Origin: a virus | Reading direction: 5' to 3' (one strand) | Length of the DNA: 25,009 nt | Virus record (IMG/VR): IMGVR_UViG_3300004460_001790 | Span: 1-25,009 of that record | Part shown: piece by piece, positions 3,402-6,512 of the stretch | Layout of the letters: the number at the start of each line of letters is the position of its first letter | Numbering within the stretch: position 1 is the stretch's first letter | Translations under genes and position numbers: made by a program | Notes under the pieces: generated by a model | Told to the model about the DNA's origin: nothing | Databases searched by the model: none | Seen by the model: the letters and a program-made list of their open reading frames with translations, nothing else

Positions 3402-4735
3402 CCGGCGCCACACGCGCGGGCGGCCTGCACACGCCGCACCCCGAAGACGCCTGGGAAACCGAGATCGTCAATCAGGCGTACCGCATCGCCATCGCCATGC
3501 GCAAGAAGAACAAGCACGTGCCGTTGCCAGCCACGACCATCAAGCCGTGGCGGTTGCACATGAGCGGCCACGGGTACGTCATTCCACGATACGCGCCGAC
3601 GCTGGCTTCACCCGTTGTCGACGAAACCGTGGCGCCGCCTGCGGTTCACTTGGGTGCGCATCCGGGGCTCACGCTCCGACCGTACCAGCGGGATGCGTTG
3701 GCCAAGTGGTGGGCACACAAACACGGCGTCGTCGTCGCGCCGTGTGGTGCGGGAAAGACCGCCATCGGACTGACGGCCGTGCTTCACCTGGACACGCCGG
3801 CGCTGGTGTTGGTTCACACCCATGACCTGTTGCGACAGTGGCAAGTCCGCGCACATGCCCTGGACATCCCCGTGCAGGTTGTGACCGAGGGAAAAGGCCC
3901 GGCGTCCGCGCGTCTGGTCATCGCCACGATGCAGACGTTGGCTGGCTGGCCGCACGACCAGATTGAGGGCTGGGGCGAGCAGTTCGGCCTCGTCATTGTG
4001 GACGAGGCGCACCACGTGCCGTGCACGACGCTGACCGACGTGCTGTACGCGTTGCCCGGCCGGTACAGGCTGGCGTTGACAGCCACGCCCGAGCGCGCCG
4101 ACGGGCTCACGCCCATTCTGCTGGGGCACATGGGGCCGGTTCGCGCCGAGGTCAGCCGGCAAGCGCTAATCGAGGCGAACGCCATCATCATCCCCGAGGT
4201 GCGGCGCATCTCGACGGGCTGGGCGCCGAAAGAGGACGCCGACTATACCGAGATGGTCACGTCCAGCACCGAAAGCGCGAAGCGAAACGGGCTGATCGTG
4301 GCGCTGGCCTCAGCTGCTGTCGCAGATGGGCGGACGGTTCTGGTGCAGACTGAGCGCGTCGAACACGTCGAACAGCTCGGGCGCATGCTTCAAGCGGTCG
4401 GCGTCGGCTCTGCGGCTGTTCATGGAAAGCTATCCGGCAAGGTCCGCGCGGCGCTGCTAGAATCGGTGGCCTCGGGCATGACGCCCGTGCTCATCGCCAC
4501 CCAGTTGGCCGACGAAGGCCTTGACCTGCCACGGCTGGACACGCTGATACTCGGCGTCCCCCAGCGCAACGCGGCCCGCCTTGAGCAGCGCGTGGGGCGC
4601 ATCGCACGGCCTGCGCCCGGCAAGCTGGGCGCTGTCGTGTACGACTTGTGCGACGGCGGCAAGGCGGAGCGGCTTTGGTACCAGCGCCGGAAGGTCTACC
4701 GAATGATGGGCTGCCCTGTGGTGGAGAATGAATGA
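3398..4735 (+). CDS. Superfamily 2 DEAD/DEAH-type DNA helicase
   Basis: 445 residues. An N-terminal 90-residue extension precedes the Q-like motif LRPYQRDAL (93-101). The Walker A motif is APCGAGKT (114-121), Walker B is VDEAHH (201-206), motif III is LTATPER (227-233), and the second RecA lobe ends with LEQRVGRIAR (395-404) carrying the arginine finger. The order and spacing fit XPB/UvsW/Ssl2-like SF2 helicases, which use ATP to translocate on duplex DNA and remodel forks or recombination intermediates. Size is normal for phage members. The start overlaps the preceding gene (ATGA at 3398). The stop overlaps the ATG at 4732, the start of the overprinting frame, and lies just after the methyltransferase ATG at 4728. 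Confidence 0.88.
   Translation: MTGATRAGGLHTPHPEDAWETEIVNQAYRIAIAMRKKNKHVPLPATTIKPWRLHMSGHGYVIPRYAPTLASPVVDETVAPPAVHLGAHPGLTLRPYQRDALAKWWAHKHGVVVAPCGAGKTAIGLTAVLHLDTPALVLVHTHDLLRQWQVRAHALDIPVQVVTEGKGPASARLVIATMQTLAGWPHDQIEGWGEQFGLVIVDEAHHVPCTTLTDVLYALPGRYRLALTATPERADGLTPILLGHMGPVRAEVSRQALIEANAIIIPEVRRISTGWAPKEDADYTEMVTSSTESAKRNGLIVALASAAVADGRTVLVQTERVEHVEQLGRMLQAVGVGSAAVHGKLSGKVRAALLESVASGMTPVLIATQLADEGLDLPRLDTLILGVPQRNAARLEQRVGRIARPAPGKLGAVVYDLCDGGKAERLWYQRRKVYRMMGCPVVENE
4720..4735 (+). promoter_or_regulatory. Ribosome binding site shared by two overlapping genes
   Basis: GGTGGAG at 4720-4726 is followed by ATG 4728 (methyltransferase frame) after one base and by ATG 4732 (alternate frame) after five bases. 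Only the second spacing is normal. ATG 4732 also forms the ATGA overlap with the helicase stop, the coupling used at most junctions in this operon. The arrangement AATGAATGAGC would let one initiating ribosome choose between frames. Confidence 0.6.
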
Positions 4736-5510
4736 GCTACATCTTTTTGCTGGATCCGGGGGAGGAATCCTCGGCGGACAGCTTCTCGGCCATACCTGCG
4801 TCTGTGCTGTTGAGTGGAATGCCTACGCGCGGCGCGTTTTACTCGCTCGACAGCGGGATGGGTCACTACCGCGGTTCCCAATCTGGGATGATGTCCAGAC
4901 GTTTGACGGCACGCCGTGGCGCGGGCGCGTGGATGTTGTTGCGGGCGGCTTCCCGTGTCAGGACATATCGTCGGCTGGAAAGGGCGCAGGCATTGACGGG
5001 GAACGGTCGGGAATGTGGCGGCACATGGCCCGCATCATTGGCGAGGTACGACCGCGATTCGCGTTCGTGGAAAACAGCCCAGTTCTCACTTCTCGGGGGC
5101 TCGGCGTCGTACTCGGAGATTTGGCCGCAATGGGGTACGATGCGGAATGGTGCGTGTTGGGCGCTTTCGAAGCCGGAGCACCACACCGACGACAACGAAT
5201 CTGGATTCTTGCCTACGCCAACGGCGGCGGCAAACATGCTGTCACCGTCAATGCAGAAGTGGCCCGCGCATCTCAGGATGTGGCCGACGCCGACAGCACA
5301 CAACGCCAAGGAAGGAGGGTATCCAGCAGAACACAACAGGAACACGCCCACACTTGCGGCACAAGCTGGTGGGGCGCTGAACCCGACGTGGGTCGAATGG
5401 CTAATGGGGTGGCCGCTCGGGTGGACAGACTGTGCTGTATCGGCAACGGACAAGTACCGGTGGTGGCGGCGCTTGCATGGCAAACGCTGATGAAGCGGAT
5501 TAACGAATAG
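4728..5510 (+). CDS. C5-cytosine DNA methyltransferase, solitary phage type
   Basis: 260 residues. Motif I is LHLFAGSGGG (4-13), motif IV is GGFPCQDIS (73-81) with catalytic Cys77, motif VI is VENSP (114-118, where ENV is the usual form), motif VIII is APHRRQRIW (151-159), and motif X is IGNGQVPVVAALAW (238-251). It transfers a methyl group from S-adenosylmethionine to cytosine C5. No restriction endonuclease is adjacent, so a protective or regulatory role in phage DNA is more likely than restriction. The protein is short: the target-recognition stretch between motifs VIII and X is only about 80 residues. Its ATG sits one base after the Shine-Dalgarno sequence, an awkward spacing. Almost the whole gene also encodes a second protein in another frame. 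Confidence 0.88.
   Translation: MNELHLFAGSGGGILGGQLLGHTCVCAVEWNAYARRVLLARQRDGSLPRFPIWDDVQTFDGTPWRGRVDVVAGGFPCQDISSAGKGAGIDGERSGMWRHMARIIGEVRPRFAFVENSPVLTSRGLGVVLGDLAAMGYDAEWCVLGAFEAGAPHRRQRIWILAYANGGGKHAVTVNAEVARASQDVADADSTQRQGRRVSSRTQQEHAHTCGTSWWGAEPDVGRMANGVAARVDRLCCIGNGQVPVVAALAWQTLMKRINE
4732..5490 (+). CDS. Overprinted protein encoded within the methyltransferase gene
   Basis: 252 residues in the +1 frame relative to the methyltransferase, covering 759 bases without a stop. Several features look like real protein: an N-terminus MSYIFLLDPGEESSADSF, SWKTAQFSL (112-120), YSEIWPQWGTMRNGA (127-141), two copies of a PTPTA motif (LPTPTA 160-165, WPTPTA 184-189), and LNPTWVEWLMGWPLGWTD (216-233). 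From memory, unverified, phage databases contain proteins with starts like MSYIFLQ and segments like LNPxWVEWLMGFPxGWTD, sometimes labelled methyltransferase-related. The start has the better-spaced Shine-Dalgarno sequence and overlaps the helicase stop as ATGA. No function can be assigned. The alternative is a frame kept open by the composition and conserved sequence of the methyltransferase; independent expression is not shown here. Confidence 0.6.
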   Translation: MSYIFLLDPGEESSADSFSAIPASVLLSGMPTRGAFYSLDSGMGHYRGSQSGMMSRRLTARRGAGAWMLLRAASRVRTYRRLERAQALTGNGRECGGTWPASLARYDRDSRSWKTAQFSLLGGSASYSEIWPQWGTMRNGACWALSKPEHHTDDNESGFLPTPTAAANMLSPSMQKWPAHLRMWPTPTAHNAKEGGYPAEHNRNTPTLAAQAGGALNPTWVEWLMGWPLGWTDCAVSATDKYRWWRRLHGKR

Positions 5511-5544
5511 ATGCTCTCTCCGAGCGCGGTCTGATCCACCGCTG

Positions 5545-5574
5545 GGGCGTCCGGGTGTTGTTCCCCGGGCGCCC
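5545..5574. other. Strong GC hairpin between the methyltransferase and primase-like genes
   Basis: GGGCGTCCGGG (5545-5555) pairs with CCCGGGCGCCC (5564-5574) over 11 positions with one G-U wobble; the loop is TGTTGTTC. No T-run follows, so it is not a textbook terminator. It lies in the 90-base gap 5511-5600, the only sizeable gap inside the early rightward genes, and may mark an RNA processing, pausing or partial termination point. Confidence 0.5.
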
Positions 5575-5600
5575 ATCTCGGAGACTTCTGGAGAGGCACC

Positions 5601-6512
5601 ATGGATACCTGGAGCGTCGCCATCAGCGACCATGCACGCACGTCCGCATGTGTCCAGCATGTGCTTCCATGGCTGGAACTAGTCGAGCTGCTCACCGTCC
5701 CGACGGTCCACCGCGGCGAGAAAAACCGGCTGACGGCGTGGAGCCCGGTACAGCTGCGGCCCGGTGCCGACGGCAAGGTCACGCGCGCAAACGCCAACGT
5801 GGTCAGCGTGTCGTGCCTCGTGTACGACTTCGATCAGGGCGAGCCCGTCGAGCGCGTGGACGCGCTGGCCTACGGGTGGACGGCCATTGTGCACACCTCG
5901 TGGAGCCACGCGCCTGCGCATCCAAAGGTGCGGCTGATTCTTCCGCTAGCCGATCCTTGCGCTGCTGACCGTTGGCCCGACGTGTGGGGCGCTGCGGCCC
6001 GCTGGGCGGCCTCTGTTGGCTTGACCGTCGACAAGTCGACCAAGGACCCATCCCGGCTCTTCTTCTTGCCTGCAACGCCTCCGGACGCGACGCGTCGTCG
6101 TCAGTTCTTCGCGTCATCGCAGGAGGGCCAGATGCTGACGTGGCGCCACGTGTTGACCTTGTACCCGGCGCCTGTCGAGGCCCGGCGGTTCGCTCCGGTC
6201 AAGTCCGCGTTGAGTCGAGGGCTACCCGGGCAGGACTTGACCTCGGTTCGCTGCGACAAGGCGGCGCGCATCATCGCGCACCGCTGCCGCGAGCTCGCCA
6301 CCACCTCCGAGGGCGGCCGGAATCTCCGGCTGTTCCGGACAACTGCTGCAGCCGCGCAGCTTCACGCGGCTGGCGTTCTGGACCTCCAGAGCGCCTTAGA
6401 CGACATCACGCAGGCGGCACGGGCGGCAGGGCTCGGGGACCGTGAGATCGCAACCACCATCGCCAGCGGAGTCACCCGCGGCAAACAGGACGGACCATGG
6501 CAGTTCAGCTGA
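5601..6512 (+). CDS. Primase/primase-polymerase-like replication protein
   Basis: 303 residues. The N-terminal half resembles archaeo-eukaryotic-type primases found with VapE helicases: VYDFDQG (74-80) gives the acidic DxD-like motif, then HTSWSHAPAHPKVRLILPLADP (98-119) gives the conserved His and Arg strand. VDKSTKDPSRLFFLPATPP (143-161) gives the Asp and Ser-Arg motif that typically closes the active site. The C-terminal third is helical. The predicted role is primer synthesis at the phage origin. The start at 5601 follows TGGAGAGGCACC. The gene overlaps the VapE-type helicase gene by 16 bases, so the two are likely coupled and act together. Family assignment rests on motif pattern, not on a search; the fold is likely, full catalytic competence less certain. 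Confidence 0.6.
   Translation: MDTWSVAISDHARTSACVQHVLPWLELVELLTVPTVHRGEKNRLTAWSPVQLRPGADGKVTRANANVVSVSCLVYDFDQGEPVERVDALAYGWTAIVHTSWSHAPAHPKVRLILPLADPCAADRWPDVWGAAARWAASVGLTVDKSTKDPSRLFFLPATPPDATRRRQFFASSQEGQMLTWRHVLTLYPAPVEARRFAPVKSALSRGLPGQDLTSVRCDKAARIIAHRCRELATTSEGGRNLRLFRTTAAAAQLHAAGVLDLQSALDDITQAARAAGLGDREIATTIASGVTRGKQDGPWQFS

Follow-up and report, generated by a model that had tools for sequence, protein, structure and literature searches.

A single gene that is read in two frames very probably encodes a two-polypeptide cytosine-5 DNA methyltransferase, in which one subunit, beta, is nested out of frame within the other, alpha. The gene lies in a virus record of 25,009 bases, taken over its whole length and referred to below as the window, where it is flanked by helicase and primase/helicase genes; the phage also carries a large terminase gene. 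Alpha (260 aa) matches PF00145 with E = 1.1e-30 and phrog_363 with E = 8.4e-69, and beta (252 aa, +1 frame) matches phrog_1008 with E = 1.9e-25 as well as several smaller phage families. Both open reading frames had been pointed out in a preliminary description of this DNA and are present, together with every peptide quoted there (Table 1). The double start contains a TGA (4729–4731) that is an in-frame stop of the beta frame, and a start of the ATGAATGAG type, with the beta ATG overlapping the codons for alpha Asn2 and Glu3, is common to most relatives. From the Shine-Dalgarno-like GGTGGAG, the alpha ATG follows 1 nt on and the beta ATG 5 nt on; for alpha this 1-nt distance is unusual, which counts against the explanation that we favor.

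Table 1. Features of the doubly read methyltransferase gene in the window.
Feature	Positions	Strand	Basis or remark
Shine-Dalgarno-like GGTGGAG	4720–4726	+	Sequence; may serve both starts
Double start ATGAATG	4728–4734	+	Alpha ATG at 4728, beta ATG at 4732
Alpha subunit, C5 methyltransferase, motifs I–VIII and X	4728–5510	+	Sequence, PF00145, AF2 model
Alpha motif IV GGFPCQDIS with catalytic Cys	4944–4970	+	Invariant in alignment A2
Beta subunit, +1 frame, 252 aa, nested inside alpha	4732–5490	+	ORF, relatives, selection tests
Beta N-terminal ~100 residues	4732–5037	+	Frame stays open; predicted disordered
Beta conserved block LARYDRDSRSWKTAQFSLLG..SEIWPQWGTMRNG	5038–5151	+	Conservation in alignment A1; hhalign to Corndogvirus gp5
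Beta PTPTA-repeat region, likely TRD	5203–5367	+	Sequence comparison with relatives
Alpha linker, residues 167–235	5226–5432	+	Site of the TRD in single-chain enzymes; pLDDT <50
Beta motif IX equivalent LNPTWVEWLMGWPLGWTD	5377–5430	+	Comparison with single-chain enzymes and Corndogvirus gp5
Alpha motif X RVDRLCCIGNGQVPVVAALAW	5418–5480	+	Sequence, alignment A2

An open frame of this length might be an artefact, held open by chance in high-GC DNA, with the likeness among its translations a mere shadow of the conservation of alpha. Long chance ORFs do occur here, such as an antisense one at 4866–5660, and the alternate frames of related genes look alike. (The antisense ORF, on the minus strand, runs for 264 aa over the alpha/beta pair; relatives of it were sought and none detected, and it is probably a chance ORF in high-GC DNA.) Alpha was shuffled 20,000 times among synonymous codons, with protein and codon usage unchanged; the mean length of the longest +1 open run was 91 codons, and no shuffle gave a run of 252. 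The preliminary description had looked to frequent alternate-frame stops in relatives as the sign of an accidental frame. When 80 viral loci were picked by their alpha protein, so that beta played no part in the choice, the +1 frame was open in 72 of the 74 distinct genes, with 2 stops seen versus 329 expected, whereas the +2 frame of the same genes held 1114 stops versus 926 expected. The larger set, 187 distinct loci that include prophages and MAGs of many phyla, gave 20, 0, 1, and 5 stops in the +1 frame over alpha regions 1–60, 61–110, 111–166, and 167–240 (121, 207, 269, and 291 expected) and 6 versus 767 over codons 61–240; +2 stops were at or above expectation overall, and the +1 frame closes within the last ~20 alpha codons. 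Neighboring genes of the window and two single-chain methyltransferases, used as controls, show roughly the expected number of +1 stops. Searching with beta by tblastn returned 182 phage records, where the register was the +1 frame of a methyltransferase in those inspected, and alpha was found at the +1 offset on the same strand in all 80 genome loci fetched with beta. A small sample of third-position G/C from the preliminary description was left out as too small to decide anything.

The start codon of beta is protected. Of 159 genes, 158 use AAT and 1 uses AAC for alpha Asn2, whereas AAT makes up 38% of the remaining Asn codons in these genes; because the loci are not independent, the contrast is weaker than its nominal P of 4e-65 suggests. 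The start codon of alpha is far freer than that of beta, with ATG, GTG, TTG, or none of them at its position. Substitutions were then compared between 69 independent close pairs and 39 control genes from the same contigs. The constraint on alpha third positions that had been proposed as a check is seen: these positions, which are second positions of beta, take 44% of the alpha substitutions versus 61% in controls, and the share of alpha first positions, which are third positions of beta, is up from 24% in controls to 37%. After motif VIII, identity in close pairs is 0.748 for beta, 0.584 for alpha, and 0.584 for the +2 frame. For pairs with <50% alpha identity, beta is 34% identical in the linker versus 18% for shuffled codons; the +2 frame is also raised there (25% versus a null of 16%), and part of the excess is shared ancestry, because the shuffle null leaves ancestry in. 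Conservation is almost no higher than the shuffle null over the first 60 residues of beta, and over its N-terminal ~100 residues it goes only weakly beyond the level that alpha imposes. Both frames are conserved and under selection, and the overlap is real. The chance frame or alpha shadow, to which we assign a negligible probability, is refuted by the stop depletion, the protected start codon, the third-position constraint, the greater conservation of beta than of alpha in the linker, and the controls at expectation. An old, conserved overprint with database relatives, as the preliminary description had it, is borne out.

C5 methyltransferases carry motifs I–VIII, a variable region with the target recognition domain (TRD), and motifs IX and X, the TRD and motif IX making up the small domain (PMC3404938). 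Motifs I, IV (PCQ), VI (EN), VIII, and X were found in alpha and are invariant in alignment A2; motif IX and a recognizable TRD are absent from it. The AF2 model of alpha matches M.HhaI and M.HaeIII, and residues 167–235, between motifs VIII and X, have pLDDT <50. In the 3′ half the filler reading seems to be this alpha linker and not beta, because the conserved half of beta has its homologue in the TRD/motif-IX part of ordinary single-chain C5 methyltransferases.

Judged by sequence comparison, this homology of beta runs through single-chain relatives and Corndogvirus gp5, and beta supplies the motif IX and TRD that are missing in alpha. The C-terminal half of beta holds, in order, the block SWKT..SETWPRWGTMRNG, the PTPTA repeats, and LNPTWVEWLMGWPLGWTD (alignment A1). 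Mycobacterium phage WillSterrel gp71, a single chain of 391 aa, spans both phrog_363, the alpha family, and phrog_1008, the beta family, in the order motifs I–VIII, PTPT repeats, RLNPAFPEWMMGWPTGW, motif X; hhalign of beta to gp71 gave 95.7% over the motif. Against Corndogvirus gp5, which runs on into motif X, hhalign gave 141 columns at 98.9% (E = 1.7e-17). At loci L188, L236, and L250, beta and motif X share one frame and alpha ends after motif VIII (L188 and L250 checked by alignment, L236 by translation only). The beta C-terminus of phage C72C1 is 50–57% identical to the window family, compared with just 31–36% for the catalytic part of alpha; beta C-termini thus seem to have been exchanged between lineages, as expected of a specificity module. 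The L-x-P-x5-[LM]-M-G-aromatic spacing agrees with that of motif IX in E. coli Dcm, RLTPRECARLMGF, a likeness by eye only because hhalign of the beta/single-chain alignment against Dcm gave no significant motif IX match. A beta profile did not match the M.HhaI sequence either, and the motif IX homology takes its direct statistical support from the single-chain enzymes of phages rather than from M.HhaI, Dcm, or enzymes of solved structure. The homology search that had been proposed for the 252-residue product succeeded with phrog_1008 and failed to give a known domain family, with no significant match in Pfam, NCBIfam, or PDB sequence searches. The AF2 model of beta alone is poor (mean pLDDT 51) and found no fold match in the PDB; two confident low-TM Foldseek matches in BFVD (one named methyltransferase, E = 1.9e-6) were left out as structural proof.

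Beta is most likely the half that chooses the DNA sequence to methylate. Since it has an ORF and a start of its own, it might instead be a separate regulator, inhibitor, or anti-restriction protein whose overlap with the enzyme is incidental, but single-chain enzymes contain a homologue of its conserved half in their TRD/motif-IX part, which is exactly what alpha is without, and we hold this alternative to be very improbable. The same homology supports the guess in the preliminary description that beta is a subunit, and it runs counter to the other roles suggested there, of regulator or anti-restriction factor, and to the idea of a protein newly born inside the enzyme.

The closest precedent is M.EcoHK31I, in which a second chain carries motif IX. 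The coding sequence of this small chain likewise lies in another frame inside the large-chain gene. M.EcoHK31I recognizes YGGCCR, its larger chain has motifs I–VIII and X with motif IX on the smaller second chain, and the predicted TRD was placed on the large chain (PMC3404938); both polypeptides are needed for activity, according to the title of a 1995 paper cited there. The window pair, compared by description, likewise has motifs I–VIII and X on one chain and IX on the other. Unlike in M.EcoHK31I, the TRD-like region of the window pair is in beta, and the alpha linker, disordered in its model, varies as much as the +2 frame; also, M.EcoHK31I belongs to a restriction-modification system, whereas no gene among those searched next to the window gene was recognized as an endonuclease. 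M.AquI (CYCGRG), an alpha/beta enzyme, is naturally split in the variable region, past motif VIII (PMC3404938). A split of this type, with motifs IX and X on the second chain, occurs in Corndogvirus, L188, L236, and L250; L003, L188, L236, and L250 have motif X on the beta ORF and an alpha that ends after motif VIII, an AquI-like intermediate form. The window differs from M.AquI in keeping motif X on alpha and in the complete nesting of its second gene. WillSterrel gp71 has the same motifs, the PTP repeats, and L-N-P-...-E-W-M-M-G-W-P-.-G-W ahead of motif X, but it uses one frame, and its +1 frame has stops. The PHROGs family matched by beta, phrog_1008, is also matched by second genes of the Dorothy and Yecey3 types, and its name, "DNA methyltransferase", is silent on members being out-of-frame subunits. 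As far as we have checked, what is new is that the second gene is completely nested from a conserved double start, ATGAATGA, that the TRD probably lies in beta, that beta carries motif X in some variants, and that the arrangement is so widespread. A full-text literature search did not find a phage description of such an overlap, which does not show that none exists.

We envisage that alpha, in frame 1, would form the catalytic/AdoMet domain with motifs I–VIII and X, and that beta, from its own ATG 4 nt downstream and ending just before alpha, would form the small domain with the target recognition region and motif IX. Both chains would be made from one mRNA, from two starts 4 bases apart behind one ribosome-binding site, and would join noncovalently into one active enzyme. 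Fragments of split C5 methyltransferases complement each other (PMC3404938, PMC3439449), and the two chains may assemble like these or like M.EcoHK31I. The part of alpha read from the TRD DNA would be an unstructured linker leading on to motif X. Each protein would have its functional half mostly over the filler half of its partner, which would make an overlap of this length tolerable. A programmed +1 frameshift after motif VIII, taking alpha into the beta frame, would give a single chain of motifs I–VIII, TRD, and IX, with the domain order of the single-chain relatives, and in some divergent loci (L004, L007–L009) the beta frame opens only later. However, such a product would be without motif X, and it needs neither a protected ATG nor an early open frame, while in the window family the Asn codon is AAT by 158:1 and the beta frame is open from an ATG 4 nt past the alpha start (20 stops versus 328 expected over regions 1–110). 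We therefore favor initiation at the beta ATG, because the frame is open and the ATG protected from the alpha start, and consider frameshifting unlikely. The usual role of phage methyltransferases is to methylate phage DNA against host restriction, and the two-chain enzyme may likewise protect the phage from restriction by methylating its DNA. We infer that beta is translated from its ATG, that the chains assemble into an active enzyme, that beta picks the target, and that the enzyme has this anti-restriction role. The ancestor was probably a single-chain gene. One frame change, seen in L188, L236, L250, and Corndogvirus, would have fallen after motif VIII, and a second one, seen in the window, ahead of motif X.

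Hundreds of phages and prophages share this two-frame arrangement, which gene annotation mostly overlooks. The beta profile is matched by ∼5% of the genomes sampled from the family of Pantoea and by 8% of those from the order of Bradyrhizobium. A far-diverged enterobacterial family (L264–L274, L276, L278–L280) has an alpha that starts MTAYYNEFDPKAAAWLREL... and an overlapping +1 beta that ends LNPAHSRWLMGFPPEW; its HMM E values are about 1e-17 for alpha and about 1e-9 to 1e-16 for beta, with 5 stops in the +1 frame versus 64 expected and the +2 frame at expectation. Annotation is inconsistent. Alpha alone is usually called (L001, L002, L258), and both are called in Corndogviruses, where gp5 is annotated as a second "DNA methylase" that overlaps gp6; in Stenotrophomonas phage SOVA965 (L009:1992–2492), the deposited "DNA-cytosine methyltransferase" is the beta frame, and the catalytic alpha is unannotated. 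The last two bear out, for some relatives, the suggestion in the preliminary description that they are annotated as separate genes.

Several variants were seen along the way. A single stop breaks alpha in the linker in L192 and L212 and in the catalytic part in L198 and L209, with beta open or nearly so, which may point to gene decay, errors in the sequence, or one more kind of split. In the E. coli PCP07014 prophage (L259:2001–2762), alpha and beta have one stop each, a few bases apart, and alpha is marked as a pseudogene by PGAP. Within Cheoctovirus, WillSterrel (L252) has the single-chain C5 methyltransferase versus an overlapping two-frame one in Nitzel (L007). Arthrobacter phage KBurrousTX gp80 (L257:577–1905) is a beta-type protein of 442 aa with many PTP repeats, which suggests repeated or multiple recognition modules, and it adjoins, with slight overlap, the separate DNA methylase gene gp79.

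We consider it fairly probable that a nested out-of-frame subunit is a general build of C5 methyltransferases, and that many of the short phage and prophage enzymes now annotated are alpha chains with their specificity chain in the +1 frame. The nested arrangement would derive from a single-chain gene by frameshifts on both sides of the TRD. A hidden second subunit would account for the apparent lack of a recognition domain in many phage methyltransferases, which form a large group, and it would mend their annotation; codon-optimized expression of the annotated gene would silently destroy the second subunit. The same-strand overlap of ∼750 bases, conserved across phages of many hosts and with both functions predictable, would be a clear, testable case, a natural system in which to see how double reading of a gene fixes a protein split, and, for engineering, a split methyltransferase that already exists.
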